NCBI GenBank assembly: GCA_017403955.1
Contig: JAFRDH010000019.1
Coordinates: forward strand, 124,001-188,000
DNA: 64,000 bases
Source: Mogibacterium sp.
GTDB taxonomy: Bacteria; Bacillota; Clostridia; Peptostreptococcales; Anaerovoracaceae
Direction: 5' to 3'
Numbering within the stretch: position 1 is the stretch's first letter; every line of letters starts with the position of its first letter. Positions 16,939 to 31,627 of this stretch are shown piece by piece. The notes beneath the pieces are model-generated. The model was not told the DNA's origin. It saw only the letters and a program-made list of their open reading frames with translations, and searched no databases. Made by a program: the position numbers and the translations under genes.

Positions 16939-17264
16939 TGTAGATCCTCCTGTTAAATTTGTACTAATTTTCGCTATGCTTGTACAGGACTCCGCTCCGT
17001 CTCATCTCGCGGAAAGCCTTACAACTCCTTGGCGTCCTTGAAATTTCAACGTTTTTGCCGTCCTTGTGCCTGACCTTCGGCCTCTCGCAGAGGTCTGGCA
17101 TACCGCACACTCGCGTTGCTTGTGTGTCGTACACCGTGCCGTGCGTTTCCTCAGCTGTGGCACACAACAAAAAAGCGAACCCCTTCGCCCTCATCGCGTG
17201 AGGACTTCTCGGCAGAAATTATCCGCTAGCACGGTAACTTCCTGCTTCTTCGCGTTTTGCAAGC
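16939..17264 (-). promoter_or_regulatory. rpsJ leader: Long structured leader of the S10 operon with attenuator-like hairpin
   Basis: About 326 bases of GC-rich leader from the inferred start site to rpsJ. On the transcribed strand a hairpin CCTCA/TGAGG (17189-17203) is followed by GCGAA/TTCGC (17175-17188) and six T residues (17169-17174), an intrinsic terminator about 75-95 bases into the transcript. Further down, TGCC-GACC pairs with GGTC-GGCA (17067-17100), an alternative to an internal CCTCT/AGAGG stem, so mutually exclusive folds are possible. An open frame of 76 codons (16964-17194) lacks a binding site and is probably an accident. The ligand, perhaps L4, is inferred only. Confidence 0.6.
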
Positions 17265-17270
17265 CTTTGA

Positions 17271-17299
17271 ATTATATATTATGAAGATAAGCTGGTCAA
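17271..17299 (-). promoter_or_regulatory. Promoter of the S10-spc-alpha superoperon
   Basis: TTGACC (plus-strand complement 17294-17299), exactly 17 bases, then TATAAT (17271-17276): a near-perfect housekeeping sigma promoter. An A-rich stretch just upstream (17301-17320, AAAAAAGTTTTAAAAAAGG on the minus strand) looks like an UP element, as expected for a ribosomal promoter. Confidence 0.85.
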
Positions 17300-17694
17300 G
17301 CCTTTTTTAAAACTTTTTTCAGCAATTATTTGTGTGTTTTTTGATGCTGAATTTCAGTATTTTCAAGGGTTTGAGGGGCTTCTTCTCCTACACGGCGGTT
17401 CGCGTTTCCTGCAATGTCGATTCTGCCCCACAAATAGTGTCTGACGCCCTCATGCCGGCACTATATATAGTAGTGCATACATATACATGCATCCATATAA
17501 TTGCAAATTAAGACAAGAGCATTAGCCGGTGACTGCCCGGCTGACATCGATTTATTATGCATCAGCCAAAGCAACCGGGTGAGCCCCCTTTCAGCACTGT
17601 GCCTGCTGACAGAAAGCTCACCCGGTCGTGTCATGTTTCGGTTATTGCAGTTGTGTAGTAGTTATGTAGTAGTTGTGTTGTAGTAATTACAGTA
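17300..17694. other. Intergenic region between the S10 promoter and the ABC binding protein gene
   Basis: About 395 bases without a credible gene. It holds the A-rich upstream element of the S10 promoter and, at 17574-17626, a hairpin with 11-bp arms ACCGGGTGAGC/GCTCACCCGGT placed about 70 bases after the end of the binding-protein gene. That hairpin may end the nitrogenase-like operon, although no T-run follows it. I see nothing else that I can name. Confidence 0.6.
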
Positions 17695-18852
17695 TTAGTT
17701 GTTGTATGAGAATCCGCCGCCTGCGCTCTGGGCAGGTTCAAAGATCGACTGTGCCTGCTCATCTGTCAGGTCGATTCCGAAGACCTCTTTGTAATATGTC
17801 TTTGCCTCAGCAATGACATCAACGTCCTCGAACTTTTCAGGATATGCAGTCTTTGCCATCCAGAGAAGTGTTACAGGACAGTCTACTCCAGGTGTGTAGC
17901 TCCTGTACATTCCAAGAGGCATCTTGAATACTCTCTTGTCCTGTACAGCCTTGACTGCGCTCCAGTCATATCCTTCGACTGTATTGTTATAAAGGTCGTC
18001 CGGGAAGTAAGTATTGAAGTTTGTCATGAAGATCAGATCAGGATTCCATGCATAAACCTGTTCCATATTGACTGCGACTGAATTGTCTGTGCTGAGTTCC
18101 TGAGCAACATTCTTTGCGCCGATAGCGTCAGCCCACCACTGTCCGAAGAACTGCTGGCCGGATGTGAGCAGAGTTGTGTCGCTGTACTGGAAGAGGAAGA
18201 ATGAATTTGCCTTCTCTTCGTCAGGAATATCCTTCACCTTTTCCTGTACGAAATTATACATTTCCTCAGACTTGGTCCTGCAGATCTCGGCTTTATCATT
18301 ATCCGGGAACATCTGGCTCAGAAGGTCGATCCAGTTATTTAATGTTTCTATGCAATTATAGTTCCACTTGTTTACGGAGATCGCTACTGCTGCAAAGCCG
18401 GCATTTTTCAGTTGCTCGCCGAGTTCAGGACTCGAAGCGCTGTAGAAAACAACGTCCGGTTCGAGTTTTGTCAGTTCTTCCATGTTGACGTTCGTTCCGT
18501 CGATATATCCGGTCTCCGCATTCAGTATTTCCGGATAAAGCTGTCCCAGAAGTCCGTTTTGAGCGGCCGTCATGCTAGGCACCGGCATTCCTACGATCTT
18601 GTCTGCAGAGTCAAAGAAAACTGCAAGTACGCTAGGAAGCGGGAAGATATCACAGACAGCGATTCTGTTGATCTGTGCAGGGACCTCCACCTGATTATCC
18701 GCATGATCGGTCACAACGATCGTTTCAGGTGCGGCAGTCTCTTCACTTCCGCCGGAAGAGCCGCATGAAGCGAATGACATCATTGCCATAACCAGGGCAA
18801 GCATAAGAACGAGTAGTTTTGTTGTTTTCTTCATATTCAGATAATTCTTCAT
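17695..18852 (-). CDS. ABC transporter substrate-binding lipoprotein (FepB/BtuF type)
   Basis: 385 residues. Signal peptide with lipobox FASC (Cys30), then a class III periplasmic-binding fold (TroA/BtuF superfamily) as used for siderophore, haem, cobalamin or metal-chelate uptake: INRIAVCDIFPLPSVLAVFF, a TKLEPDVVFYSASSPELGEQ lobe and PDLIFMTNFNTYF in the second lobe. The start at 18852 follows AAGGAGG. It is the last gene of the nitrogenase-like operon, 79 bases after the component-1 gene, and most likely feeds the FecCD-type permease at the other end of the operon. Substrate unknown; the context suggests a metal complex or corrin/tetrapyrrole-like molecule. Confidence 0.8.
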   Translation of the reverse strand: MKNYLNMKKTTKLLVLMLALVMAMMSFASCGSSGGSEETAAPETIVVTDHADNQVEVPAQINRIAVCDIFPLPSVLAVFFDSADKIVGMPVPSMTAAQNGLLGQLYPEILNAETGYIDGTNVNMEELTKLEPDVVFYSASSPELGEQLKNAGFAAVAISVNKWNYNCIETLNNWIDLLSQMFPDNDKAEICRTKSEEMYNFVQEKVKDIPDEEKANSFFLFQYSDTTLLTSGQQFFGQWWADAIGAKNVAQELSTDNSVAVNMEQVYAWNPDLIFMTNFNTYFPDDLYNNTVEGYDWSAVKAVQDKRVFKMPLGMYRSYTPGVDCPVTLLWMAKTAYPEKFEDVDVIAEAKTYYKEVFGIDLTDEQAQSIFEPAQSAGGGFSYNN

Positions 18853-18931
18853 ACTCAGAAACCTCCTTGAAGTAATAAATTTATATAAAAGAAATAATTG
18901 ATAGCTGATTTGATCTGCCGGGATGCTTCCA

Positions 18932-20230
18932 CTAAAGCTGCGAAAGAATCACTTCCGGTTCCTTTATAAGGTCCGGGATCGCTTTTCTGTAGATCCTGCC
19001 TGAGAAAGCCTCGGTAGGGAGTGAAATGAACTTCGCGCTTTCCGGGCAGATAGGCTTGTACATAGGGTCTGCGATAATGACATTTGCACCATCGAGTTCC
19101 GGGATTATGTCGTCCTCATCAGGCGTCAGGCGGTCGCAGCTGCGGAGAATGTATTCAGGACATTCCGTCGCGCAAAGCACTTTGGTCAGGCGGCCGGTCT
19201 CGAATTCTATTGCCGCAGCCAGCGCGAGGCTTGTGATGCCTTCCCCGATAATGACTACATCCGTTCCGGAATTATTAACGGCAGCACCGGCTGAGAGATC
19301 ATACTCGTATTCAACTGCATCAGCAAGATCCGACAGGATCTCGATGCTCTGCGTGCCTACTCTTTCGTCCGCATGTTCAGAATGCCTTACTGCACGTGAC
19401 TCAAATGCGACATCATTAAGAGCATCCATGATCATCTGCTTCTGGTCGTCACCGATCGGGAGTCCTATTACATAAGGGATACCGAATCGTTTGTACAGGA
19501 CTTCAGCAGCCCCGAGACCGGCTGCGGAAACCACCAGGTTCGCATCCGCCCTTCCGGCAAGTCTGAGTTCATCAAGGGAACTGCCCATAGCCCATTTTGA
19601 AATGACTTCGTAATTATTCTCCTCAAGCCACGAGCTGATGGACGCATCCGAGCCATTTACAGAGAAATCAAGCGGAGTCAGGCCTAGAATATTGACTCTT
19701 ACTTTTTCGAACATCGCAGGGGTGTTTCCACCGCCCGCTTTAAGGATCATCCCGAGCGGTCTTGCAACATCTTCTGTCGCTACATCATCAACAAGTCTTT
19801 CTGCGATCCCTGCCAGAGCCATAGAGGCTCCGTCGATATATGTCTTCATACCGCTCGTAGGGAAGCCAAAGGCCGGGATACCTGTTCTCATTTCTATGAC
19901 CTCTGCAACAGCCTTGAAGTCAAAGCCTGTCATCATCGGGATCGGAGTTCCGCAGACAGCGATGAACGCAGGTTTCAGATTCGACGCTGCATCCACGATA
20001 TCATCGATGAGCTTTTCATCATCGCCCATTATCGCCTCGATCTCGCTGATCCCGGAAATATATACCATACTGTCCATATCGAACCATCTTGGTTCATCAT
20101 GGGTCGTATATGTTGAATTGCAGCCTGAAGCATCGTGCATGACAGTCATGCCCCCGAGCTCGAAAAGTGCCGAGCAGACGCCAAACGCATCAGCTGAATA
20201 TGTGCTTATTATTCTTGCTGTCTGTTTCAT
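18932..20230 (-). CDS. Nitrogenase component 1-like protein (first subunit)
   Basis: 432 residues of the oxidoreductase/nitrogenase component-1 family (NifD/K/E/N, Bch/Chl N/B, Cfb, Mar and Nfl relatives). Three Cys are placed like the P-cluster-side ligands: C19 (FGVCSALFEL), C37 (HDASGCNSTYTTHDEPRWF, the counterpart of the NifD 'HGPIGC' loop) and C93 (IAVCGTPIPM). RVNILGLTPLDF matches the family's 'vNiiG' strand. It is clearly shorter than NifD/NifK and I see no equivalent of the FeMo-cofactor Cys/His ligands. It lies 13 bases after the second component-1 gene. Function is probably an unusual ATP-driven reduction, not N2 fixation (inference). Confidence 0.8.
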   Translation of the reverse strand: MKQTARIISTYSADAFGVCSALFELGGMTVMHDASGCNSTYTTHDEPRWFDMDSMVYISGISEIEAIMGDDEKLIDDIVDAASNLKPAFIAVCGTPIPMMTGFDFKAVAEVIEMRTGIPAFGFPTSGMKTYIDGASMALAGIAERLVDDVATEDVARPLGMILKAGGGNTPAMFEKVRVNILGLTPLDFSVNGSDASISSWLEENNYEVISKWAMGSSLDELRLAGRADANLVVSAAGLGAAEVLYKRFGIPYVIGLPIGDDQKQMIMDALNDVAFESRAVRHSEHADERVGTQSIEILSDLADAVEYEYDLSAGAAVNNSGTDVVIIGEGITSLALAAAIEFETGRLTKVLCATECPEYILRSCDRLTPDEDDIIPELDGANVIIADPMYKPICPESAKFISLPTEAFSGRIYRKAIPDLIKEPEVILSQL

Positions 20231-20243
20231 GTTCTGCTCCTTA

Positions 20244-21599
20244 CTATCTCAGGCATACATCGCAGCCAAGCCCTTTGACCTGGACAAGCTCGCGCATGCA
20301 TTTTTCTTCGCTGTATGCTTCTCTTATAAGTTCCAGGGTGTGAAGGACTGCGTCATATCCGAGCATCCCGCCTCCCTCGACCACATTGACAAAGTGATTC
20401 GTATTATCGAAATATGCCGCTTTCTGGCCGATAGCCAGGACGGTATCTCTCTCAGGCACCGCATTCTCCGAAGCAGCGAATCTCATGCTGCTGTGGACTG
20501 TCGGATAGAGCATCAGATCCGGATGATTCTCCCTGAGGTACTCAAAGTCCGGTTTGTCAGCTCCCGGTATTCCGTCAACATAGACGCGAGTCACATTGAA
20601 TCCGTGACTCAGGAGCATTCTTGCAAGTCCGAGAGGACGCGGGCAAAATGTGTAATCGATCGTGATCTCTGTATCGCCGACAAGCGAGAGCGTATCTTCG
20701 AGAGCTTTATCACAATCCGCCCTCAGCGCCTTAATTTCTTCAGGACTGAATCCCGGGACGCCGAGAACATCAGCGAGCTTTGCGAACTCATCATCGATCT
20801 CGTCATAGTTGAAACTGAACTTCGTATAATGATGCTTTCCTCCCAGCCTTGCGGAAAGCATATCTCCTCCCGGAGCTGCATCTGCATTATATGAAATATA
20901 GAATGCGCTCTCAGCCATCTCCTGATATTCAGCATAATTCCTGCATGAAGTGATCTCATGCACCTTCCTGCCTGTACGTTTCAGGAGCTTCATCAGATCA
21001 CTGTTTTCGCGGGTCGGAAGATCGTTGCCGATGATGGCGACTGCTTCCGGATCGATCTCCCGCTCGTGCAGCAGCATATAAAGTCTTGAACGCATGAGCT
21101 GATCCGGTGTCAGCCCGCTTTTGCGCATGATAGGATTCATGTAGCAGTCCGTAAAATCTATATCAGGAAATCTCTCCCTCAGTCTTGCATAGATCATGTC
21201 GAGATCGCAGCCTGCGAAATGATGTACGCAGCTTGTATATACAAGCACTGCAGGAGGTCTCTTCGGCAGCTTGCGGATGATATCCGACACGCCTTCGATG
21301 ACAAGTTCCTCCATATCTCCGTCGAGGAGATTATTCTCGCGGACAGCTACTGTAGAGAATCTGTCGGTCGTGCCCATCTCTGCCGCAGTCAGAACAACGC
21401 CGCGGAGACAGCCTGCAGCACAGACGAAAATCTCGTGTGCCTCAGGGATGAGCATTCCTGTATGTACGATATTCCATGTACCTCTTGCAGGTGAGGAATA
21501 TTCAAGGCCGGACCTGAACGGAGCAGGAAAAGCGGCATCAGCCACTCTTACCGCTGCGATCACCGGACCTGTTTCTTTTGCATTCACTCTTTTAAGCAT
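20244..21599 (-). CDS. Nitrogenase component 1-like protein (second subunit)
   Basis: 451 residues, same superfamily as its neighbour but divergent. Candidate cluster ligands are C60 and C64 (IFVCAAGCLRG), C124 (VYTSCVHHFAGCD) and C131; the YTSC..GCD stretch corresponds to the NifD/K 'tC....GDD' strand. The protein ends with GLGCDVCLR, a C-terminal CxxC unusual for this family that could bind metal or act as a redox-active tail. Together with the preceding gene it should form a heterotetramer reduced by the NifH-like protein encoded just upstream (48-base gap). Confidence 0.78.
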   Translation of the reverse strand: MLKRVNAKETGPVIAAVRVADAAFPAPFRSGLEYSSPARGTWNIVHTGMLIPEAHEIFVCAAGCLRGVVLTAAEMGTTDRFSTVAVRENNLLDGDMEELVIEGVSDIIRKLPKRPPAVLVYTSCVHHFAGCDLDMIYARLRERFPDIDFTDCYMNPIMRKSGLTPDQLMRSRLYMLLHEREIDPEAVAIIGNDLPTRENSDLMKLLKRTGRKVHEITSCRNYAEYQEMAESAFYISYNADAAPGGDMLSARLGGKHHYTKFSFNYDEIDDEFAKLADVLGVPGFSPEEIKALRADCDKALEDTLSLVGDTEITIDYTFCPRPLGLARMLLSHGFNVTRVYVDGIPGADKPDFEYLRENHPDLMLYPTVHSSMRFAASENAVPERDTVLAIGQKAAYFDNTNHFVNVVEGGGMLGYDAVLHTLELIREAYSEEKCMRELVQVKGLGCDVCLR

Positions 21600-21647
21600 A
21601 ATTTCCTGCCAATCTGTATCAATCGTGATGTATCCGTTTTGCCCGGA

Positions 21648-22403
21648 TCAAAGTCCGCAGACCTCGAGCAGCTTCTTCGCGAGCGTCCTGTACTCACCGG
21701 CCATTTCACTTTCAGGGAAAGCCTCTATAACAGTTTTGCCGAGGTCCTCTGCATCAGTTACAGTATCGCTGCGGCTGAGTTCTCCGATTATCTCCGAGCC
21801 GATGTCGGAAGCAAGCTCTGCGACTTTGGCATCCTCGTCGCGGACATTTCTGTGGTTAAGTATGATCCCGCCGAGGCTTGCATAACCGCGGTCCTTGAAT
21901 CCGTCGATAGCGACCGCTATATTAGCTGCTGCATGGATAGCCATATTCTCGCCGGAAGTGATAACGAATACTTTGTCCGCATAGCCGCCTCTCATCGGCA
22001 TCGAGAATCCGCCGCATACGACGTCTCCGAGGACATCATAAATAACTACATCAGGCTTATACACCTCGTAAGCACCCTTCTCTTTGAGTTTCTCAAGAGC
22101 CGCGATGATGCCCCTTCCCGCGCATCCGAGACCCGGTGTAGGTCCGCCTGCTTCAACACAGATGACCCCGCCGTAGCCTTCATGCACCATATCTTCAAGC
22201 GCAAAATTGTTCTTGCGTTCGCGTACGAGTTCGAGCACGGTTGTGATCTCGCCCTCACCGTGAAGACTTGCCGTTGAATCGGCTTTAGGATCGCAGCCGA
22301 TCTGCATTACTTTATAACCCATATCAGCAAGTGCAGCAGAAACATTAGAAACTGTTGTCGATTTGCCTATACCGCCTTTTCCGTAAACTGCTATTTTGAT
22401 CAT
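21648..22403 (-). CDS. NifH-like nitrogenase reductase / [4Fe-4S] ATPase
   Basis: 251 residues. P-loop GKGGIGKST, switch I region CDPKADST, and the two Cys that hold the inter-subunit [4Fe-4S] cluster: C94 in GLGCAGRG and C130 in [14 protein letters not shown]. The Arg of GCAGRG, the ADP-ribosylation site in NifH, is present. All features of an ATP-driven electron donor of the NifH/BchL/CfbC group are intact. Shorter than NifH (about 275-295). Overlaps the hydE stop by four bases (ATGA), so it is translationally coupled to HydE. Confidence 0.88.
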
Positions 22404-23461
22404 TTTATTTCTCCCTCTGACGCTTTGAAATCACCGCGTCCTACGACTACTTCGTATCCTATCTCTTCCATCTGAGCCCTCAGTGCAGTGATACCTGCTT
22501 CGGCGCTCATATCTGTTCCGACCTTGCCGTCATACAGCATGTATTTCTTTCTGACTTCCATCGGGGACAGATTCGGCATGACGACGTTGCATCCGGCGAG
22601 CACACCCTTCTGTCTGCCCTCCGCTTCTACTGTGCCAAGCGCGGTGGTAGATGGGATCAGCGCATCCGGGAACATTATCCGGCAAAGCGCTATGACGAGC
22701 AATGTAGTGTCCACGCTGCCGCGGGGCTCATCCCTGAAAGGTGTGTCTTTGTGTGGGATGAACGGTCCGAGCCCGATCATTTCCGGCCTGAGGTCATGCA
22801 TGAAGATCATGTCCTTCGCAATGTGCTCAGGTTTCTGGTGCGGTGTTCCTATCATGATCCCCGCACCTGTCTGGAATCCGATTTCTTTAAGATCGCGGAG
22901 ACAACGCTTCCTGTTCTCGCATGACATCTTTTGCGGATGGAGCATCGAGTAATGCTCAGGGTCTGCGGTTTCATGTCTCAGCAGGTATCTCGAAGCACCG
23001 GCATCGTAAAGTGCCTGATAATAGTCTCTGTCAAGTTCTCCGATCGAAAGTGTCACAGCGCAGTCCGGGAACTCGTCATGGATATCCCGCACGATGCCGC
23101 ACATTTTCTCCTTTGTGAAATACGGATCTTCTCCGCCCTGCAGCACGAAGGTCCTGAACCCGTGCTCATATCCGTCTCTGCAGCAGTTCAGGATATCCTC
23201 TTCATCCAGCCTGTAACGCTGGATATTATGATTGCTGCACCTGATACCGCAATAATAGCAGTCATTTCTGCATATATTGGTGAATTCAACGATGCCCCTG
23301 AAATAGATTTTCTTTCCGAATCTCCCGATGGCTATTCGGTGGGCTTCGCGCATTGCATATTCAAGATCCGCCTGATCGTAAGTGCTGAAAACCTGCGTCC
23401 ACTCTGCTTCGTCGAGTTCACGCTTTTCGATCAGTTTGTCTATAAGCTGTATGTTCGTCAT
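22400..23461 (-). CDS. hydE: Radical SAM protein of the HydE family
   Basis: 353 residues. Radical SAM cluster CX3CX2C (C64, C68, C71 in [12 protein letters not shown]), the HydE-specific [16 protein letters not shown] and [19 protein letters not shown] stretches, and the [21 protein letters not shown]-terminal region. HydE acts in [FeFe]-hydrogenase H-cluster assembly, on the Fe(CO)2(CN)-cysteine complex made by HydG. Here it overlaps the ABC ATPase gene upstream and the NifH-like gene downstream by four bases each, with no hydF, hydG or hydrogenase gene in the window. It may be a true HydE recruited as a neighbour or a paralogue making a different organometallic or sulfur-radical product. 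Confidence 0.85.
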
Positions 23462-24546
23462 ACCGTCCCCTTCCGGTCATCTGAATTGTCTTTTGCATAT
23501 GTCGTCTTGACGCTTATCGACGGGATCAGGCCGAGTCTGTGTGTCAGTTCTGATATCTCCGATCTCATTCCGTCAAGAGTCATGTTGATAATATACAGAC
23601 CGGCTCTCCTGTAAGGCAGTCCCATCCTGCCGATCAGCATATGATTATATTCATGGAGCAAAGCATTGATCATTTCAGCTTTGTCATTATTATCCGAAAT
23701 GATCGTCACAGATGCTATGCATTTTTCGTCTTCTTTTTTGCCCTGAGTCTGCGAATCTGTATCCGCGATGCTGAGCGGGATCACGTTTCTCATGATGTTC
23801 TCAGGTGTCTCGATCTCACCGATCACTGCGTTTACGCCGAAGGCTTTGCGGATGTTATCTTCAGTGACTACATTGACGGTACTGCCAAAGATACTGTCAC
23901 CGCCCTTCGAGAGGATGAGTGATTTGTCGGCGCGCTGAAGCGCGTGTGCAGGATAATGCGTGTTGAATACGCAAGCGACTCCGTTCGCCGCCAGTTCAGA
24001 GATCGTATCAAGAACGATGAGCTGGTTCTTGAAATCAAGATTCGACTCCGGTTCATCAAGGATAAGGATCTCAGGTTCTGCTGCCATAGCTCTTGCGATA
24101 AGAACCATCTGAAGTTCTCCGCCGCTTATTGCATGGCACTGCTTGTCAGCAAGATCCATGATCCCAAGCGACCGCATGACTCTCTCCGCCGCCTCCATAT
24201 CTTCTGCAGAAGGCTGAGCAAACACGCCTATTCTGCTGCTCCTTCCGAGAAGGACCGTCTGAAAAGCGGTGAAAGAAGATGCTGCGGATTTTGCCTGCGG
24301 GACATACGCCATCCTGCTCCAGAGTTTTCTCGCCGGGATACTGTGGATGTCCTCTCCGTCCAGAAGACTCCGCCCGCTCTTCCATTTGAGCATATCCATC
24401 ATGCACCTGAGCATAGTGGTTTTGCCTGCTCCGTTAGGTCCGAGCACTGCGATGATCTCTCCGCTTGTGACTTCAATATTTATATCTTTGAGGATCTCAG
24501 GTCCTCCCTTATAAGCAAAGCTGCCGTTTTCGATTCTAAGTATCAT
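23458..24546 (-). CDS. ABC transporter ATPase fused to a C-terminal TM1266-like regulator domain
   Basis: 362 residues from the ATG at 24546, which overlaps the permease stop (ATGA). Residues 1-250 are a FecE/BtuD-type ATPase: Walker A LGPNGAGKTT, signature ISGGELQMVLIARAMA, Walker B EILILDEPES, H-loop FNTHYPAH. After a linker, about residues 277-355 repeat the fold encoded by the separate small gene at 25714-25959: ASVTIISDN, LLHEYNHMLIGRMGLPYR, LYIINMTLDGM, then VKTTYAK. That family is annotated as an iron-only-hydrogenase system regulator (TM1266 type). The fusion ties the importer physically to the hydrogenase/HydE-linked regulator. A longer upstream reading frame exists but is covered by the permease gene. 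Confidence 0.85.
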   Translation of the reverse strand: MILRIENGSFAYKGGPEILKDINIEVTSGEIIAVLGPNGAGKTTMLRCMMDMLKWKSGRSLLDGEDIHSIPARKLWSRMAYVPQAKSAASSFTAFQTVLLGRSSRIGVFAQPSAEDMEAAERVMRSLGIMDLADKQCHAISGGELQMVLIARAMAAEPEILILDEPESNLDFKNQLIVLDTISELAANGVACVFNTHYPAHALQRADKSLILSKGGDSIFGSTVNVVTEDNIRKAFGVNAVIGEIETPENIMRNVIPLSIADTDSQTQGKKEDEKCIASVTIISDNNDKAEMINALLHEYNHMLIGRMGLPYRRAGLYIINMTLDGMRSEISELTHRLGLIPSISVKTTYAKDNSDDRKGTV

Positions 24547-25559
24547 ATGCGCCAGCCTCCGCTTCTTCTCATCAGCATAATAAAGAATGGTGCGCCGATT
24601 ATCGCGGTGAGTATCGACACCGGTATTTCTGCGGCTGATATGCTTCTGGCCATTGTGTCCACTGCGATCATAAAGACCGCGCCGAGGCTTACAGATGCCG
24701 GGATTATCGACAGGTGGTTGTTGCCGAAGAGCATTCGGCACATATGAGGGATCAGGAGTCCGACCCATCCGACCTGTCCGCACATCGAGACGCATGATGC
24801 CGTGATCACGGTCGCGCAGATAACAGTCACAGTCCTGAGCGCCCTGATATTGACTCCTGAGGCTTTTGCCTCGTCATCGGAAAGCGGCAGCAGGTTCATT
24901 CTCCATCTGATCAGGAAAAGGACCAGTACACCCGCAATAATTACCGGTGAACCGAATGAGAGTGTCCTGAAGCTTGCTTTGTCAAGGCCGCCCATCAGCC
25001 AATAAGTGATCGCCGGAAGCTGCGATTCTTCATCAGCGACGTATTTGATCAATGATACAAGCGCTGAGAAAAGCGAGCCTATCATGATACCCGAGAGAAC
25101 GATGTAGCTGAGTCCGCCTTTGTCTTTGCCCGATCCTGCGAGCCACGTAAGTGTTACGGCAGCTCCGCCCATCAGCATGCCCACAAACTGCACTCCGACC
25201 AGATCGAAGCCCAGCAGAATGCCGAGTGCTGCGCCAAAGCTCGCTCCGCTGGCGACACCGAGTGTGTCAGGCGTAGCAAGAGGGTTAGCGAAAAGGCTCT
25301 GGAATGCACAGCCTGAGACCGAAAGTCCCGCTCCTACCAAAGCCGCAAGCACGATCCTCGGGAGCCTGAGCTGCATGATCGTCTTCTCGACAGGCATATT
25401 CGCATAGTGGCCGCCCGATATCCTTGTTCTGAGAACATCGAAAACATCCCCCGGAGATATCTGCATTCTCCCGAGGCCAAGAGCGATCAGCGCTGCAATG
25501 AAAGGCAGCACGATCAGTATTATTATCCAATAAACCTGTAACCTTCCGTCTCTCCTCAT
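24543..25559 (-). CDS. ABC transporter permease, FecCD/BtuC family
   Basis: 338 residues, about ten transmembrane helices, with hallmark segments LRLPRIVLAALVGAGLSVSG, FQSLFANPLATPDTLGVASG and GLLIPHMCRMLFGNNHLSII of metal-chelate and cobalamin importers. I chose the ATG at 25559: the frame opens upstream at a TTG (25634), but an intrinsic terminator at 25586-25623 lies between the two, so the shorter form is the better reading; GAGG precedes it, though closely. It couples to the ATPase by a four-base overlap. Homodimer expected. Confidence 0.85.
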   Translation of the reverse strand: MRRDGRLQVYWIIILIVLPFIAALIALGLGRMQISPGDVFDVLRTRISGGHYANMPVEKTIMQLRLPRIVLAALVGAGLSVSGCAFQSLFANPLATPDTLGVASGASFGAALGILLGFDLVGVQFVGMLMGGAAVTLTWLAGSGKDKGGLSYIVLSGIMIGSLFSALVSLIKYVADEESQLPAITYWLMGGLDKASFRTLSFGSPVIIAGVLVLFLIRWRMNLLPLSDDEAKASGVNIRALRTVTVICATVITASCVSMCGQVGWVGLLIPHMCRMLFGNNHLSIIPASVSLGAVFMIAVDTMARSISAAEIPVSILTAIIGAPFFIMLMRRSGGWRI

Positions 25560-25713
25560 ATCCTCACTTGAGTCCCGTTCTAATGAAAAAGCCTCACTCC
25601 CCTGTTGCGAGAAGCAAGGCTTTATTGCAATCAAAAATCAGTCCTTGTTGTCATCGTGCTTCAGCCTCAATGTGCACCGGGCAGATTTCGGCTTCAGGGG
25701 ATGTTGTGAGGTA
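25560..25713 (-). promoter_or_regulatory. Intercistronic leader with intrinsic terminator (attenuator candidate)
   Basis: About 150 bases between the small regulator gene and the permease. The transcribed strand ends in a hairpin with arms AAAGCCT/AGGCTTT (25588-25623) and an inner partly wobble-paired CTTCTC/GGGGAG stem, followed by five T residues (25586-25590), only about 30 bases before the permease start. Upstream of it the sequence can form an AGCC/GGCT stem. I do not recognise a known riboswitch class. It could make transcription of the permease and all downstream genes conditional. Confidence 0.6.
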
Positions 25714-25959
25714 TCAGGCTTTGGCGTAGGTCACTTTAGCATTGATGCCGTCAAGACGTCCGAGCGCACCGCTGAGAGAATTGATCTTATCCATCGGTGC
25801 GTCAATGGCCACGCTGATTATGTTGAGGTTCTTCTCTCTATAAGGAACTCCCATCCTTCCGAGGATGTATGATGAGTACTCATGGAGGAGATCATTCAGC
25901 ACGTCCACCTGATCAGCCTTTGTGACAATAATGCTTATCACAGCGACTCTGGTTTCCAT
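25714..25959 (-). CDS. Iron-only hydrogenase system regulator-like protein (TM1266 family)
   Basis: 81 residues from the ATG at 25959 (AAGGAG eight bases upstream). Sequence runs METRVAVISIIV, LLHEYSSYILGRMGVPYREK, NLNIISVAIDAPMDKINSLS, INAKVTYAKA. This small ACT-like ferredoxin fold is the TM1266 family, normally found beside [FeFe]-hydrogenase and HydEFG genes and presumed regulatory. It has a close relative as the C-terminal domain of the ABC ATPase in the same operon. First gene of the nitrogenase-like operon. Confidence 0.85.
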   Translation of the reverse strand: METRVAVISIIVTKADQVDVLNDLLHEYSSYILGRMGVPYREKNLNIISVAIDAPMDKINSLSGALGRLDGINAKVTYAKA

Positions 25960-25997
25960 TGATACCACTCCTTATTCAATTATTCATATACATTCGT

Positions 25998-26026
25998 ATT
26001 TTAACACAGGTAAAGCAGACCTGCAA
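25998..26026 (-). promoter_or_regulatory. Promoter of the nitrogenase-like operon
   Basis: TTGCAG (complement of 26021-26026), 17 bases, TAAAAT (complement of 25998-26003), about 40 bases upstream of the regulator gene. Good match to the housekeeping sigma consensus. No obvious operator palindrome overlaps it. Confidence 0.7.
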
Positions 26027-26031
26027 CGGGA

Positions 26032-26057
26032 GTGTGCCACCATCCCCGGTGACACAC
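26032..26057 (-). terminator. Hairpin after the giant BspA-like gene
   Basis: Stem GTGTGCCACC/GGTGACACAC with one mismatch and a six-base loop, starting about 10 bases after the stop of the BspA-like gene. No T-run follows, so efficiency is uncertain, but its position just before the next promoter supports a terminator role. Confidence 0.5.
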
Positions 26058-26068
26058 CCTTTCGATCG

Positions 26069-29000
26069 TTATTTGACTCTTATCTTGACAGTAACAGTCT
26101 TAGTCGCGGCTTTGTAGTTGCTGTCGCCTGAAGCAGTGACTTTGACTTTGATCTTATAGGAGCCTTTTTTGGTCCCTTTCTTGACTGTGATCTTGCCGGT
26201 CTTGGCATTCACTGAGAGTTTCTTGCTTCCGCCGGCTTTCTTGTAGGTGACTTTTCCGACTGCATTTGCGACAGTGAGTGCCTTTACTGTCTGCTTTGCC
26301 TTTTTGACCTTCTTAGCTTTGACCTTCTTAGAGGCTGCTTTGACAGTCATCCTCTGAGGATCTTTCCTGACCAGGTTCTTCCATGCGAGCAGGAGTTCCT
26401 TGTTTGCTTCGCGAAGTGCTTCGGCATCCGCAGAAGTGTCATCGACCGCAGCATTCGCTTTGTCAAGTGCTGCCTTGAACGATTCGTAGCTGAGTGCCTT
26501 GTAAACCGATGCAACGACCTCATTGTTTGCGTCGATTATATTCCTGACAAGTGTATTCAATGCAGAATCACGGTCTTTTTCCGCTTCCTGAGCCGTCTTA
26601 TCTACAGGCTTGAGATTTCTCAGTGCCCTGACTACATTGCTCTTTGCCTCGCTGAGCTGATCTGTTGTGGAAGCCGGATCATCGATCAGCGCGTTGGCGG
26701 CATCGATAGCATCCATCAGATCCTTGTAACTCTCGGAAGTGTACTCTCCTGAAGCCGCTATTGAGTTAGCGTTTATGATGCTCTCTTCGAGCTCCTGAGC
26801 GGCCTTATCACGTGCCGAACTGTCTTCGACAACTACCAGATGATATTTTGCACCTTCATTGAAGGCCAGGTGATCCGGATTGGTCGATGTGAGAATCACA
26901 ACGTGACCTTCCCCGGTTCCGGTGTTATTCTCAAACGGCTCGACACCCATTGTCTTGAGCGATGACGGAAGAGCAACCGTAGTCAGCAGGCCTTCTTTGA
27001 ATGCGTACTTACCGATCGATTCTATGCCCTCTTCCAGATTCAGATCCAGAAGTGTCTGTTCCTTGTATGTTCCCTCAAAAGCAGATTCACCGATCTCTTT
27101 TACATTGCCCGGGACCGTAAGTGTTTCCAGATGATGCAGGTGGAATGCTTTTCTTCCGATTTTCGTTACTGATGCCGGGATCGTAAGCTCAGTCAGTCTC
27201 GCGCCGGCAAAAGCCATTTCACAGATCTCGGTTACTGTCGAAGGAATTTCGACATGACTCATGCGGATATTCATTGAGAAAGCGCCTTGCGGGATCACTG
27301 TGACGTTCTCAGAAAGCCTCAGTTCTGTAATGGAGTTCATAGCAAAAGCCCCTTCTCCGAGAACGTTTACAGTATCAGGCAGATATACGCTTCCGAGATG
27401 GTTGCCGTGGAATGCACTCTTTCCGATCTCGGAAAGACTCTTGAGGCTTCTGAAGTCGATAGCTGTCAGCATATTATATTCGAATGCCCGCTCTCCGATC
27501 TTTTCCAGCCCTTCCGGCAGGACCACAGATCTGAGTCCATCCGAATTCGCTTCATATTTGCCAATATCCGCGTCTTCTTCCGCAACAGCGAATGCCCTGT
27601 CTCCGATCATGGTAATAGGAGTTCCATCCGGTGCGCAGTCAGGCAGTATGAGATTTTTCATTGTCTCAAACTTTGCCCTTCCGCTCTCGCTCCATCCGGT
27701 CAATGCAGTTCCATCTTCACTGAAGGTGAAGTCTTCTTCTTCCCATCCGCTTCCGGCAAGTTTGTCGTAGACTACCTCGAAAGAATATGCTGAATTATTA
27801 TCAAGGGCTGCATATCTTGCTGCCTCTTCCTCATTAGATGTCAGGAGTCTGACTTTGGCTTCGGTGTCTGTGAAGGCCCCCGCCTTGATTTTGTCAAAAG
27901 AATACTCTGAAGGAATCTCTGCTTTCGCAAGAGCATGCCCTCTGAAAGCGTTTGCAGCGATAGTACCGTCAAAACCTTTGCCGAATTCGAGGCGGGTCAG
28001 TGTGTTCTGCAGTGTTTCATTGATGACTGCAAAACTGCTTGAGCCAACCGACAGGACTGAACCAGGCAGGTAAAGATCAGAGATCTGGCTATTGCTGAAA
28101 GCACTGTTTCCGATAGTCTCCAGTCCTTCGTGCAATGTGAGTTCCCGGATCTTGCTGCCCTGGAACGCGGTATTGCCGATCGATTTGATGCTTTCAGGTA
28201 TCTCAAGGCTCTCGATCGTTGCCATCTGATCGAACGGTATCTTATTGTTCGTCTTCACAAACGCACCTGCAGGGATCGCTGTAAGCGATTTTGACAGAAT
28301 GACCCTGTTTACATAAATCGTTCCGCTGAACGCACCGTTTCCGAGTGTCGTCACACTGTCCGGAAGAATGACCGACGTAAGCGGAGCATTCTGGAATGCA
28401 GTATTACCGATCGTCTTTAATGACTCCGGAAATTCGATTTCCGTAAGGCCGATCGTTTCTCCTGTCGAGGAATCTATGTATGCCGAGAAGGCGTTGTTCC
28501 CGATCGATTCAAGTCTTTCCGGAAGTCTCACAGAAACCGGAACATATGGGGTGCCGTCCACTGCGATCCCGAATGTGCCGATCTGGTCTTCTCCGGCCGA
28601 GCCCATTACCCCATCACCGATCGCTTTAACAGCCTGTCCTTCCGGTCCATTGTCCGGGAGAACGAGATCCTGATTGATCCGGATCTTGCTCTTTCCTGCA
28701 TCCGAAAGTCCTGTTATTGTCGTTCCCTCTTCATCAAATGTGAAATCGGAAACTCCCCACGGAGCTTCATCTGACGGGATCTCGCCGATCACCAGTTTCT
28801 GGACATAAGAGCCACCGTTTTCCGTATTATATATGAGATCAGTATCGCTATCTGTCTTCTTGTACATATAGACGATACCGCCCTTCTGCAGCGCAGAGGT
28901 CCCTCCGGTAACCGGCTCAACACCGGTGTTCTGGAAGAATACTGTCGAAAGTGTCGTCGCCGGTCTCAGCGCGCCCATGACTCCGACATTATCCGGGAGC

Positions 29001-31588
29001 TGTACGGAAACGACTTTGTTGATCGCAAATGCCATATTCTCTACATTCAGACTGAAATCGACCGTATCCGTGAAGTCGAGCGTCGATATCTGGTTGGATC
29101 CGAATGCCTGCGACTTGATCAGCGTGATCGTCGAAGGGAAGCTAACGCTTCTCAGCTGGTTGTAAGCAAAAGCTGATGTGTCGACAAAGATCACACCTTC
29201 CGGGAGCGTCAGGGCTGTCAGCTCATTTCTTATGAACGCCGAATTTCCAATGAAGAAATCGCCGCGTTCCTCCAGATCCGGATCCCAGGATGTCTTGTCG
29301 TTCTGCGTCTTAACGTTTTCCGGGAAAGTGACAGATTTCACTTTATAACCGAGCTCACTTTCGAGGGTCGATCCCTTGAACGCGCTCGCTCCGACGCCCT
29401 GTACCTTGCGGCCGTCCGGGTCTTCTGCAGGGATCACCAGATGCTGATTCTGCTTGAACTTCGCCTTGCCGGTATCTGAGAATCCGGTCACGACCCAAAG
29501 TGTCGGCGTGAGACAGTCATCAGTATTGTTACCAAGGAACAACGATTGGTCTGCAACTGTCCACTCACCATATGTAAAGTCTTCAGGAGTCCACACCTTG
29601 AAGTCTGTCAGGATAAGCTTGTGGAACTCTGATTCCGGGAAATTCTCACGGTCATCATACTGTTCCCTGCTGCTGACATAGACCTTGGTGACCATATCAT
29701 ATGGCTCGCTGCCCGGGATATCCGGTGTACCATGAGTCGAAAGCATCTTTTCAAATGTCAATTCCGGAAGTGCTTCCACAGATTCAGGCAGTTCTACCTC
29801 AGCGATGAGTTTGTTCCTGAATGCTCTATTGCCGATCTTAGTAAGGCTGCCCGGGAGTTTCAGACTGCACACTGCATCATCGAGCATCAGGTAATTCTTC
29901 GTTGAGAACGCGTACTCACCGATCTCGGTCACACCTTCCGGGATATTGATAGAGATAATATTACTGCCCGCGAAAGCTCTCGCACCTATCTTTGTGACAC
30001 CTTCAGGAATTGTTACCGAAGTGAGATCTGCCATCCAGTTCTTAGAGTCACTGCAGGCAAAAGCTGCTGCAGGAATCTCTGTCAGGCTGCGGGACAGAAC
30101 GACCTTCTTCAATGTCTTGTTCGTTGAGAATGCACCGGCGCCCATTGTTTTTACCGTATCAGGAAGCACCACAGTCTCAAGCGAGTTCATCATGAATGCA
30201 CTCTGGCCGATTTCCTCAAGCTTAGGCGGGAAATCCACCTCGGTAAGACCGGCTTCGCGGAATGCGTTCATACCAATTTTTTTGAGTCCGCTCGGCAACG
30301 TGACCGAGGTGATTTTTTCTTCTGCAGTTGCAAAGAGTCCACCCGACTGCGCCGGGGCATCCGCGATCGCGGTGATCAGTTTACCGTCTTCGTTGTAATC
30401 AGGCAGGATCAGGTCTGTATTGGTCTTTCTCTTCTCAAGACCGCTTGCGGACAGACCGGTTATGGTCGTTCCGTCAATCGTGAAGTCTCCTCTGTTCCAT
30501 GATTCCGAATCAGGGTTCTGTGTATCCGGATTTCCGTTATTGATGATCAGCTTCTGGAACCAGGATTTGGTCGAAGCCGTCGTTTTATCGATATGATGGA
30601 TTCTGTCAAGATCCCACAGACCTTCATTGTCTGTGTACATGTAGACGACCCCACTTCCTTCAAAAGCAGCCGCAGTCATGTCCTCCGCAGCTTCTGCCGG
30701 CAATGGCTCCATGCCGGGATTGAGCATGAATGTGTGCTTATTCACAACTGCAGTTGTATCCGGCAGTCTTACGGACTGGATCTTGTTGTTGGCAAATGCC
30801 ATTCCGTGCATTTCCATCATGAACCATGTGCGCTCAGGGAATCCGACTTTGGTGATCTGGTTCTTCGCAAAGCACTGTGTCTCCATCCACCAGATGGTTT
30901 TAGGGAGTGTGACTGTCGTGAGCTTGTTGTTATAGAAAGCGTTGCTCATGAGGGCGATGACACCATCAGGGAGCTTGACGCTTGTGAGTTCGTTGTTCGC
31001 GAATGCGTTTTCTGCAATGACGAAATTCCCTCTCTGGGTGATAAGGTGTGTCAGTTCGTCATCGTAGTTCACATACATCCCGGTCGGAAATTGGACCGAA
31101 GTCAGGCCTTTGGCATAGAATGCGTCTTTGGCTACTCCTACGACTTCTTCACCGGTATCTGTCGTGGAAGGCAGGACCAGGTCTTTGTTCTGCTCAAGTT
31201 TAAGAAGGCCGGTTTCTGAGAAACCCGCGATTGCCATTCCGGAAATCGTGAAATCTCTCGAATAATCACAGCCATACAGTCTCTGTGAATACTCAGCATA
31301 AGTAAAGTCTGCAGTAGTCCAGGTGCTGTAATCGAGTTCCTGCGCCGTATCTTCTTCAGCTACAGCTTCTCCATCACCTTCAACGGATCCGGAAGCTTCT
31401 TCGGGCAGCGTCTCAGTGTCAATGGTTTCATCATCGCCGGACTGGATATCACCGGCTGATTGTTCTGTCAATTCGACAGATTGTGAGTCTGTTTCGATAC
31501 TTGCTGATGTATCATCCAGTGCGAATATCTGCACCGGGAAAACCATCATAATTGCAAGCAATATTGATAGAATTCGTTTGCGATCCAT
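26069..31588 (-). CDS. Giant BspA-like leucine-rich-repeat surface protein with FIVAR domains
   Basis: About 1839 residues from the ATG at 31588 (AGAGG nine bases upstream; another ATG three codons earlier has no usable spacing). Signal peptide, an acidic Ser/Glu-rich stretch (about 30-90), then five related modules. Each opens with a 'W..eDFTf...ItGlSesGk.K...n.dLvlPd' segment (near residues 95, 365, 675, 950, 1275) followed by several LRR_5/BspA repeats of the type 'IGnsAF....L..v.LP.sv..ig'. Then two FIVAR helical domains (about 1575-1735) and a Lys-rich beta domain ending VTVKIRVK. No LPxTG anchor or transmembrane tail. Such proteins are secreted adhesins that bind host proteins or other bacteria; the basic tail may hold it on the wall (inference). 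Confidence 0.85.
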   Translation of the reverse strand: MDRKRILSILLAIMMVFPVQIFALDDTSASIETDSQSVELTEQSAGDIQSGDDETIDTETLPEEASGSVEGDGEAVAEEDTAQELDYSTWTTADFTYAEYSQRLYGCDYSRDFTISGMAIAGFSETGLLKLEQNKDLVLPSTTDTGEEVVGVAKDAFYAKGLTSVQFPTGMYVNYDDELTHLITQRGNFVIAENAFANNELTSVKLPDGVIALMSNAFYNNKLTTVTLPKTIWWMETQCFAKNQITKVGFPERTWFMMEMHGMAFANNKIQSVRLPDTTAVVNKHTFMLNPGMEPLPAEAAEDMTAAAFEGSGVVYMYTDNEGLWDLDRIHHIDKTTASTKSWFQKLIINNGNPDTQNPDSESWNRGDFTIDGTTITGLSASGLEKRKTNTDLILPDYNEDGKLITAIADAPAQSGGLFATAEEKITSVTLPSGLKKIGMNAFREAGLTEVDFPPKLEEIGQSAFMMNSLETVVLPDTVKTMGAGAFSTNKTLKKVVLSRSLTEIPAAAFACSDSKNWMADLTSVTIPEGVTKIGARAFAGSNIISINIPEGVTEIGEYAFSTKNYLMLDDAVCSLKLPGSLTKIGNRAFRNKLIAEVELPESVEALPELTFEKMLSTHGTPDIPGSEPYDMVTKVYVSSREQYDDRENFPESEFHKLILTDFKVWTPEDFTYGEWTVADQSLFLGNNTDDCLTPTLWVVTGFSDTGKAKFKQNQHLVIPAEDPDGRKVQGVGASAFKGSTLESELGYKVKSVTFPENVKTQNDKTSWDPDLEERGDFFIGNSAFIRNELTALTLPEGVIFVDTSAFAYNQLRSVSFPSTITLIKSQAFGSNQISTLDFTDTVDFSLNVENMAFAINKVVSVQLPDNVGVMGALRPATTLSTVFFQNTGVEPVTGGTSALQKGGIVYMYKKTDSDTDLIYNTENGGSYVQKLVIGEIPSDEAPWGVSDFTFDEEGTTITGLSDAGKSKIRINQDLVLPDNGPEGQAVKAIGDGVMGSAGEDQIGTFGIAVDGTPYVPVSVRLPERLESIGNNAFSAYIDSSTGETIGLTEIEFPESLKTIGNTAFQNAPLTSVILPDSVTTLGNGAFSGTIYVNRVILSKSLTAIPAGAFVKTNNKIPFDQMATIESLEIPESIKSIGNTAFQGSKIRELTLHEGLETIGNSAFSNSQISDLYLPGSVLSVGSSSFAVINETLQNTLTRLEFGKGFDGTIAANAFRGHALAKAEIPSEYSFDKIKAGAFTDTEAKVRLLTSNEEEAARYAALDNNSAYSFEVVYDKLAGSGWEEEDFTFSEDGTALTGWSESGRAKFETMKNLILPDCAPDGTPITMIGDRAFAVAEEDADIGKYEANSDGLRSVVLPEGLEKIGERAFEYNMLTAIDFRSLKSLSEIGKSAFHGNHLGSVYLPDTVNVLGEGAFAMNSITELRLSENVTVIPQGAFSMNIRMSHVEIPSTVTEICEMAFAGARLTELTIPASVTKIGRKAFHLHHLETLTVPGNVKEIGESAFEGTYKEQTLLDLNLEEGIESIGKYAFKEGLLTTVALPSSLKTMGVEPFENNTGTGEGHVVILTSTNPDHLAFNEGAKYHLVVVEDSSARDKAAQELEESIINANSIAASGEYTSESYKDLMDAIDAANALIDDPASTTDQLSEAKSNVVRALRNLKPVDKTAQEAEKDRDSALNTLVRNIIDANNEVVASVYKALSYESFKAALDKANAAVDDTSADAEALREANKELLLAWKNLVRKDPQRMTVKAASKKVKAKKVKKAKQTVKALTVANAVGKVTYKKAGGSKKLSVNAKTGKITVKKGTKKGSYKIKVKVTASGDSNYKAATKTVTVKIRVK

Positions 31589-31627
31589 AGTCCACATCCT
31601 CTCTCTATTGGGGCATTATTTCAACCA

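Follow-up and report, generated by a model that had tools for sequence, protein, structure and literature searches.

HydG cleaves tyrosine to yield CO and cyanide. It is regarded as the source of the CO and cyanide of the [FeFe]-hydrogenase H-cluster (PMC12752695; PMC3105041), and in the order of assembly described in PMC12752695 the HydG product, Fe(Cys)(CN)(CO)2, is reduced and dimerised by HydE, after which HydF and aminomethyl H-protein finish the cluster. For eight acetogenic Clostridium, PMC9431212 reports that a motif search did not detect hydG in five, proposes atypical HydG candidates in seven, and wonders about unidentified ligand-incorporation mechanisms; heliobacteria are described as having hydA without hydEFG (PMC9147875). 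In the Hyp pathway of [NiFe]-hydrogenase, HypEF makes cyanide and HypCD serves as the scaffold (PMC6802093). Here we describe an operon of eight genes, all with intact open reading frames (ORFs), on the minus strand (17695-25968) of a 64,000-nucleotide stretch of Mogibacterium sp. DNA (C12:124001-188000 of the host genome; hereafter, the window). The operon joins HydE to a nitrogenase-like reductase and an importer, and we consider it rather probable that it is a HydG-independent branch of H-cluster maturation. The link of this gene set to H-cluster maturation is well supported, while the chemistry and the imported compound are what we infer from it.

The host genome (2.20 Mb in 25 contigs, 95.1% complete) is designated G000; G-numbers denote the genomes compared and L-numbers the loci. 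The titled entries most closely related to the locus are metagenome-assembled genomes (MAGs) from rumen and gut, labelled Mogibacterium or Clostridiales. The genes, in order of transcription, are as follows.

25714..25959, minus strand: TM1266 family protein, a putative regulator of the hydrogenase system (start ATG 25959, ORF open to 25968; TIGR03959 105 bits, cut-off 60.8)
24543..25559, minus strand: FecCD/BtuC-type permease (PF01032, 276 bits; likely ATG at 25559, ORF open to 25634)
23458..24546, minus strand: ATP-binding cassette ATPase with a C-terminal TM1266-like domain (PF00005, 107 bits)
22400..23461, minus strand: HydE radical S-adenosylmethionine (SAM) enzyme, CX3CX2C (TIGR03956 531.5 bits, cut-off 254.6)
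21648..22403, minus strand: NifH-like ATP-dependent reductase (PF00142, Fer4_NifH, 292 bits; P-loop, C94, C130)
20244..21599, minus strand: component-1 subunit D (PF00148, Oxidored_nitro, 52.5 bits, cut-off 28.6)
18932..20230, minus strand: component-1 subunit K (PF00148, Oxidored_nitro, 95.6 bits, cut-off 28.6)
17695..18852, minus strand: importer substrate-binding protein (SBP; PF01497, Peripla_BP_2, 60.6 bits; lipoprotein-like start by eye)

The initial annotation, made from the window alone, had recognized this set, and the ORFs and the Pfam or NCBIfam identity of each product bear it out as real and intact. The four-base overlaps it listed are present at the ORF coordinates (permease-ATPase, 24543/24546; ATPase-hydE, 23461/23458; hydE-nifH, 22403/22400), the ATPase starting at ATG 24546. 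The NifH-like ATPase is likewise intact, with a P-loop that reads GKGGIGKST and both cluster cysteines, C94 and C130, conserved in 100% of 96 rows. Two hydrogenase-regulator domains had also been proposed, and PF21699 matches both the TM1266 protein (102 bits) and ATPase residues 279-349 (69 bits; query with one extra N-terminal codon). The HydE product matches the HydE structure 5few in the PDB with an E value of 3.9e-82, and a permease homologue of 338 amino acids was found in L057.

Hydrogenase and maturases of the host

The absence of nifEN, hydF, hydG and hydrogenase genes from the window had been noted correctly, but an annotation confined to the window could not see what the rest of the genome holds. 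HydF (565 bits) is encoded on contig C20 and two hydrogenase-like proteins on contigs C25 and C21, all outside the window contig, C12. The one HydE match in the genome is the window gene. No HydG match over cut-off was found genome-wide, the best model match having an E value of 1.1e-13, and neither HypD nor PF00374 was matched. These genome-wide model searches thus give a host with HydA, HydE and HydF and without HydG and HypD. The host HydA (591 amino acids) carries TSCxPxW, MPCxxK and ExMxCxxGCxxGGGxP, which we take to be the three H-cluster motifs, and is flanked by ORFs of 625 and 162 amino acids that by eye resemble HydB/HydC partners. The second hydrogenase-like protein (L065:9942-11750, 602 amino acids, Fe_hyd_lg_C 144.7 bits) has a C-terminus that by eye is PAS-like.

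Cassette A tracks the absence of HydG

We refer to NifH and D-K as cassette A, and to a second nitrogenase-like set, NifH'-D'-K', as cassette B. In each of 218 genomes of the order we scanned for HydG, HydE, HydA (TIGR02512), HydF, HypD, PF00374 and a profile of D. Matches over cut-off were obtained for HydG in 154 genomes, HydE in 166, HydF in 169 and HydA in 187. D matched at E <= 0.001 in 34 genomes, of which 15 reached at least 407 bits, our definition of D-bearing in this set, and the remainder scored at most 227. HydA-type matches over cut-off also occur in genomes with none of HydE, HydF and HydG over cut-off (e.g., G036, G049, G068), and the profile was therefore conditioned on HydE.

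HydE without HydG occurs in 14 of the 218 genomes. Twelve of the 14 (G000, G005, G023, G179, G229, G034, G083, G100, G133, G156, G188, G227) bear D at or above 407 bits along with HydF and HydA over cut-off. These twelve are 95-100% complete, and an assembly gap is therefore rejected, for the set, as the cause of the missing HydG. The two that have no D, G198 and G207, are 77% and 62% complete. Overall, HydG is lacking in 12 of 15 D-bearing genomes and in 2 of 151 HydE-bearing genomes without D (table 12/3/2/149; Fisher p 6.6e-14, uncorrected for kinship). The three D-bearing genomes in which HydG is present (G199, G202, G226) belong to one genus. In genus g16 both conditions are found: HydG with no D match in G106, G138 and G191, and D with no HydG in G100, G188 and G227, while G040, G176 and G231 are without HydG, D and HydE.

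A further 66 D-bearing genomes (65 distinct, since G287 repeats G019), representing 50 of the 80 loci mapped below and 16 genus MAGs of 59-94% completeness, were scanned without the HydE model itself; HydG is over cut-off in three of them (G242, G246, G260), and four have no HydG-model match at all. Weaker matches to the HydG model, with E values of 1e-48 to 1e-59, were found in G083, G133, G156, G227, G261 and G272. In G261, in G272 and in the second match of G260, the alignment ends by model position 391 of 470. Judged on span and size, the weaker matches are taken for ThiH-like proteins.

The HydE sequences of HydG-less genomes are scattered over several places in the HydE tree. Ninety-two HydE columns are kept at 90% or more, alike in genomes with and without HydG, and 10 differ in preference (36 versus 41 sequences). 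Taken together, the distribution suggests that cassette A stands in place of HydG in many gut and rumen [FeFe]-hydrogenase bacteria, as a second way to build the active site.

Gene order across relatives

A scan of species genomes gave 217 loci with a D relative, 80 of which were kept and mapped. The neighbourhood comparison shows a recurrent operon, TM1266-permease-ATPase-(HydE)-NifH-D-K-SBP-(HydF), with HydE in 31 and HydF in 26 of the 80 loci. Among the 55 well-flanked loci, which extend more than 4.5 kb to either side of D, TM1266 is present in all 55, and permease, ATPase and SBP in 50 each. The arrangement is thus beyond chance, and HydF at the end of the operon together with HydE within it provides a tie to H-cluster maturation that is independent of the phylogenetic profile. 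Across the families represented in the 80 loci, the operon has no recurrent neighbour that could be a client enzyme; the extra neighbours seen most often belong to the flanks of a single genus or of a single small set of loci.

The importer is exchanged for cassette B and HypFCDE

In 7 of the 12 HydG-less genomes with cassette A, no importer lies beside D-K, and cassette B is found clustered with HypF-HypC-HypD-HypE. Wherever a cassette B region reaches far enough, these four genes follow B (10/10). The order is TM1266-NifH-DK(fused)-B-HypF-HypC-HypD-HypE-HydF in G005, HydA-HydE-HydF-TM1266-B-HypFCDE in G100, HydA-HydE-HydF-TM1266-B-HypF-HypC-HypD-HypE in L098, and HydA-HydE-HydF ... TM1266-B-HypFCDE-NifH-D-K in G188. 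A single syntenic place in genus g1 holds MFS-permease-ATPase-NifH-D-K in G179 (L105) and MFS-NifH-D-K in G006 (L110), MFS denoting a major facilitator superfamily protein.

Importer and cassette B are mutually exclusive in the cassette A genomes checked for both: 16 have the importer only, 11 have B only, and none has both. The importer, or its ATPase, occurs with no B match in G000, G003, G004, G009, G014-G018, G023, G034, G179, G229, G199, G202 and G226. B occurs with no importer beside cassette A in G001, G005, G006, G008, G010, G083, G100, G133, G156, G188 and G227. In this count the flank was about 1.5 kb for G004, G009, G014, G015, G018 and G001, and in the B genomes the importer was sought beside cassette A and not elsewhere. 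G007, which has B, and L128 and L158, which are without importer and in which B was not sought, were left out. On the D tree, built by a quick method that carries a long-branch warning, the Hyp-type label needs at least four changes; there L158 is labelled importer though it is without one, L128 is labelled Hyp-type with B not sought, and L168, which has no full-length row, is omitted.

HypD is found in 37 of the 218 genomes, 30 of which also match PF00374. The seven that do not (G005, G083, G100, G133, G156, G188, G227) are exactly the HydG-less B-type genomes, and the sole Hyp client noticed in B-type genomes is [FeFe]-hydrogenase. B-type loci share HypF, HypC, HypD and HypE with the [NiFe] pathway, together with their marker motifs: at 10 of 10 loci HypE has PRIC as its C-terminus and MEVCGTH and GPGCPVC are retained in HypD, an HypC-like ORF recognized by its MC start is present at all 10, and the strict HypF pattern V.HH.AH is found at 5 of the 10. 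They differ in that the Hyp genes are clustered with nitrogenase-like sets and, at some loci, with HydE, HydF and HydA as well. Given the function described for HypEF and HypCD (PMC6802093), B-type cells are equipped to produce cyanide and attach it to iron. A gene for an HypB-like GTPase also lies within a few kb of cassette A in several g1 genomes (L063:782-1465, L105:1135-1818, L110:13601-14278), including the importer-type G179, where HypD was not found.

Affinities of NifH and D-K

Like cassette A, group IV systems such as Cfb, Mar, Isr and Nfa combine NifH with a divergent component 1 and in many cases have a radical SAM enzyme as partner; that of cassette A differs in being a true HydE. 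Model scores place the window proteins within none of the NifH, Bch and Cfb groups. NifH scores 321 bits against the nitrogenase model TIGR01287, whose cut-off is 394. Scores are also below cut-off for the models of dark-operative protochlorophyllide oxidoreductase (DPOR) and chlorophyllide oxidoreductase (TIGR01281, BchL, 195.5/345; TIGR02016, BchX, 162/331; TIGR01278, BchB, 36/490) and of CfbCD (NF033200, 313.7/402; TIGR03282, 27.6/268), and identity with DPOR or CfbCD was rejected on this basis. The closest solved chain to NifH is 9fmg_D (252 bits), from an entry entitled as a methylthio-alkane reductase complex. K matches a NifN chain with 42 bits, and DPOR is a near fold match of a D homologue. 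In alignments with the NifEN maturase and with BchNB of DPOR identity is 10-19%, and, unlike these, cassette A is paired with HydE and an importer in a host that has no other component-1 pair.

In D, C64 and C124 are conserved in 100% and C60 in 96% of 99 rows, while C37 is the sole cysteine of K kept in at least 95% of 96 rows. As to the FeMo-co ligands (Cys and His in D), the C-terminal half of D has neither residue at the 95% level, though a C-terminal cysteine (C446 here) is found in at least 90% of 21 rows. By row conservation, the six P-cluster cysteines, three per subunit, are not present in D-K. NifEN genes beside nifDK were not found, the two PF00148 proteins of the host genome being the window D and K, and the rest of the genome holds no nifDK/nifEN pair. 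The host has 18 radical SAM matches, of which HydE alone lies inside the window and by eye none is NifB-like, no NifB model having been scored. A canonical nitrogenase was rejected on three grounds: NifH below cut-off, no second PF00148 pair, and the missing P-cluster cysteines.

D and K are naturally fused in G005 (L054:10299-12827). Distant NifH and D-K sets, with D-K at 21-27% identity, also lie beside FecCD-type importers in HydG-bearing genomes (L056:7505-15211, L066:5700-12622). These could possibly belong to a broader and more ancient family of nitrogenase-like enzymes linked to transporters.

Proposed role

Relative to HydEFG, the twelve HydG-less genomes keep HydE, HydF and HydA over cut-off, with TM1266 as a neighbour, and have HydG replaced by the nitrogenase-like set plus either the importer or HypFCDE. 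If HydE and HydF work here as they do in HydEFG systems, the lack of HydG requires another supplier of the same or a similar synthon. Cassette A would fill the place of HydG as an ATP-driven reductase or scaffold of NifEN/DPOR build; by conservation, D has three cysteines in its N-terminal half and K has one, which would be better matched to a bridging [4Fe-4S] cluster than to a P-cluster. It may bind a mononuclear iron-cyanide/carbonyl precursor and reduce it, or edit its ligands, to a form that HydE accepts. Being common to both types, cassette A could carry out the final reduction or ligand exchange ahead of HydE. In the B type, homology predicts that HypF-HypC-HypD-HypE convert carbamoyl phosphate to cyanide and attach this to iron, and CO might come from CO2 reduction or a formyl donor through the action of B. 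In the importer type, to which the window belongs, the FecCD-type importer would instead bring in the precursor or an equivalent, perhaps regulated or gated through the TM1266 domains. As no HypD was found in this type and the importer stands where B and Hyp would be, the imported compound should carry what Hyp and B make. What the sequences show is gene content, co-occurrence, mutual exclusion and motifs; the substrate, the sequence of the reactions and the source of CO and cyanide where the importer is present are inferred.

The fuller version of this proposal is a second H-cluster route in gut and rumen Clostridia, in which nitrogenase-family reductases finish an iron-cyanide-carbonyl unit that comes from HypFCDE or from an imported organometallic compound; we place it midway between likely and unlikely. 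To our knowledge, no known system joins these parts or gives a nitrogenase-like enzyme this role, and no organometallic iron compound has been described as taken up from the environment. All parts of the set belong to known families; it is their combination and proposed role that would be new. In open PubMed Central (PMC), which does not take in subscription papers or preprints, no listed title or abstract start joined nitrogenase-like proteins with H-cluster maturation, and no paper matched nitrogenase-like with HypF and HypD or phrases for an absent HydG. The gut hydrogenase survey PMC12578642 contained none of the maturase terms looked for.

Several observations weigh against a HydG-independent branch of maturation. 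Six genomes with cassette A keep HydG (G199, G202, G226, G242, G246, G260), so A is no universal replacement for it. HydE and HydF are present in just 19 and 20, respectively, of the 55 well-flanked operons. The D-K sets with a transporter at L056 and L066 lie in genomes that have HydG, and transporter linkage may therefore predate the hydrogenase role. In G227 D-K has no adjacent NifH, and the NifH that adjoins D-K in G100 is more akin to the B type. The importer type has no HypD match, no search for carbon monoxide dehydrogenase (CODH) or another CO source having been made. Thirteen of the 30 PF00374 calls are short matches, which span about 70 positions with 39-59 bits and may be Ech-like. 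The near-invariant C-terminal cysteine of D may bear on the cluster content of cassette A. In the HydE tree, a pair test found three independent pairs, with HydG opposite A in 2.5 on average and the two never alike, which is not significant. Finally, most of the genomes are MAGs, and kinship was controlled in part only.

Alternative roles

The best-surviving alternative, which we consider unlikely, is that cassette A serves another step of H-cluster maturation, supplying iron, sulfide or low-potential electrons to HydE/HydF, with the importer bringing an iron chelate and CO and cyanide being of cellular origin, for example from CODH or trace diatomics. In its favour, the importer is of the iron/metal-chelate class, HydE and HydF look ordinary, and HydE with HydF alone is reported to give about 1% hydrogenase activation, doubled by free CO or cyanide (PMC9431212). 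The set nevertheless tracks the absence of HydG specifically, and not that of HydE or HydF, and the alternative to the importer is the cyanide-making Hyp set, which points to ligands rather than iron.

The initial annotation had suggested that an imported metal complex or tetrapyrrole-like compound is modified by HydE and then reduced by the nitrogenase-like pair, a scheme with no tie to hydrogenase. SBP, permease and ATPase complete a FecCD/BtuCD-type importer (PF01497, PF01032, PF00005) and by model matches are akin to siderophore, heme and B12 importers, and tetrapyrrole binding is known from the DPOR fold, which is a near match. The transporter-linked sets of L056 and L066, with no HydE in the stretch fetched, and the six genomes that have both HydG and cassette A also speak for it. 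The importer is dispensable, however, being swapped for B and HypFCDE, and the set is strongly tied to HydE, HydF, TM1266 and the absence of HydG. The absence of HydG, HydF in the operon and the B/Hyp swap favour hydrogenase maturation instead, and for the window we regard chelate or tetrapyrrole reduction as quite improbable; such a route may apply to the distant relatives at L056 and L066.

A different organometallic cofactor, made for an unrecognized enzyme with HydE and the Hyp proteins shared, is very improbable. Retention of cassette A in the six HydG-bearing genomes and the second hydrogenase-like protein of the host (L022) would fit it; against it, no client enzyme recurs beside the operon, the host HydA has the three H-cluster motifs, and HydA is over cut-off in all 12 HydG-less genomes. 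The idea of a new organometallic cofactor, also raised initially, was close in direction, but the cofactor is most likely the known H-cluster made without HydG. A methylthio-alkane or isethionate reductase-like organosulfur system is scarcely credible, since K has one conserved cysteine whereas MarDK is described as having a six-cysteine P-cluster with three cysteines per subunit (PMC12552129), a pattern that cassette A is without, and the neighbours are unlike those of the sulfonate locus in PMC11423573.

If rumen and gut bacteria do mature the H-cluster without HydG in this way, the nitrogenase family would gain a new function, and two hydrogenase maturation systems so far regarded as distinct would merge. 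Such a route would also provide a new handle on H2 production in the gut and rumen. If the importer form is correct, an organometallic iron compound would be taken up from the environment, and, were its source as proposed, a hydrogenase cofactor precursor could be shared among microbes as a public good.

Other features of the locus

The solved relatives of the SBP are mixed (4ovk, 166 bits; HI_1472, 3psa, 73 bits; the nickel/iron-binding 4ls3 and 4ino, 57 bits). A riboswitch search of window positions 17000-26800 gave no match above the gathering score, and the same search at eight relative loci gave three matches, none between TM1266 and SBP. A weak match to the S10-Clostridia ribosomal leader (17185-17258, minus strand; 24.3 bits, cut-off 35.1) precedes ribosomal protein genes. 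By eye, a terminator-like hairpin with a T-run lies between TM1266 and the permease gene (25586-25623, minus strand); it may allow TM1266 to be expressed on its own, the other genes of the operon being reached by read-through. Immediately upstream of the operon lies a gene (26069-31597, minus strand) for a protein of 1842 amino acids that by eye is a BspA-like leucine-rich-repeat surface protein.

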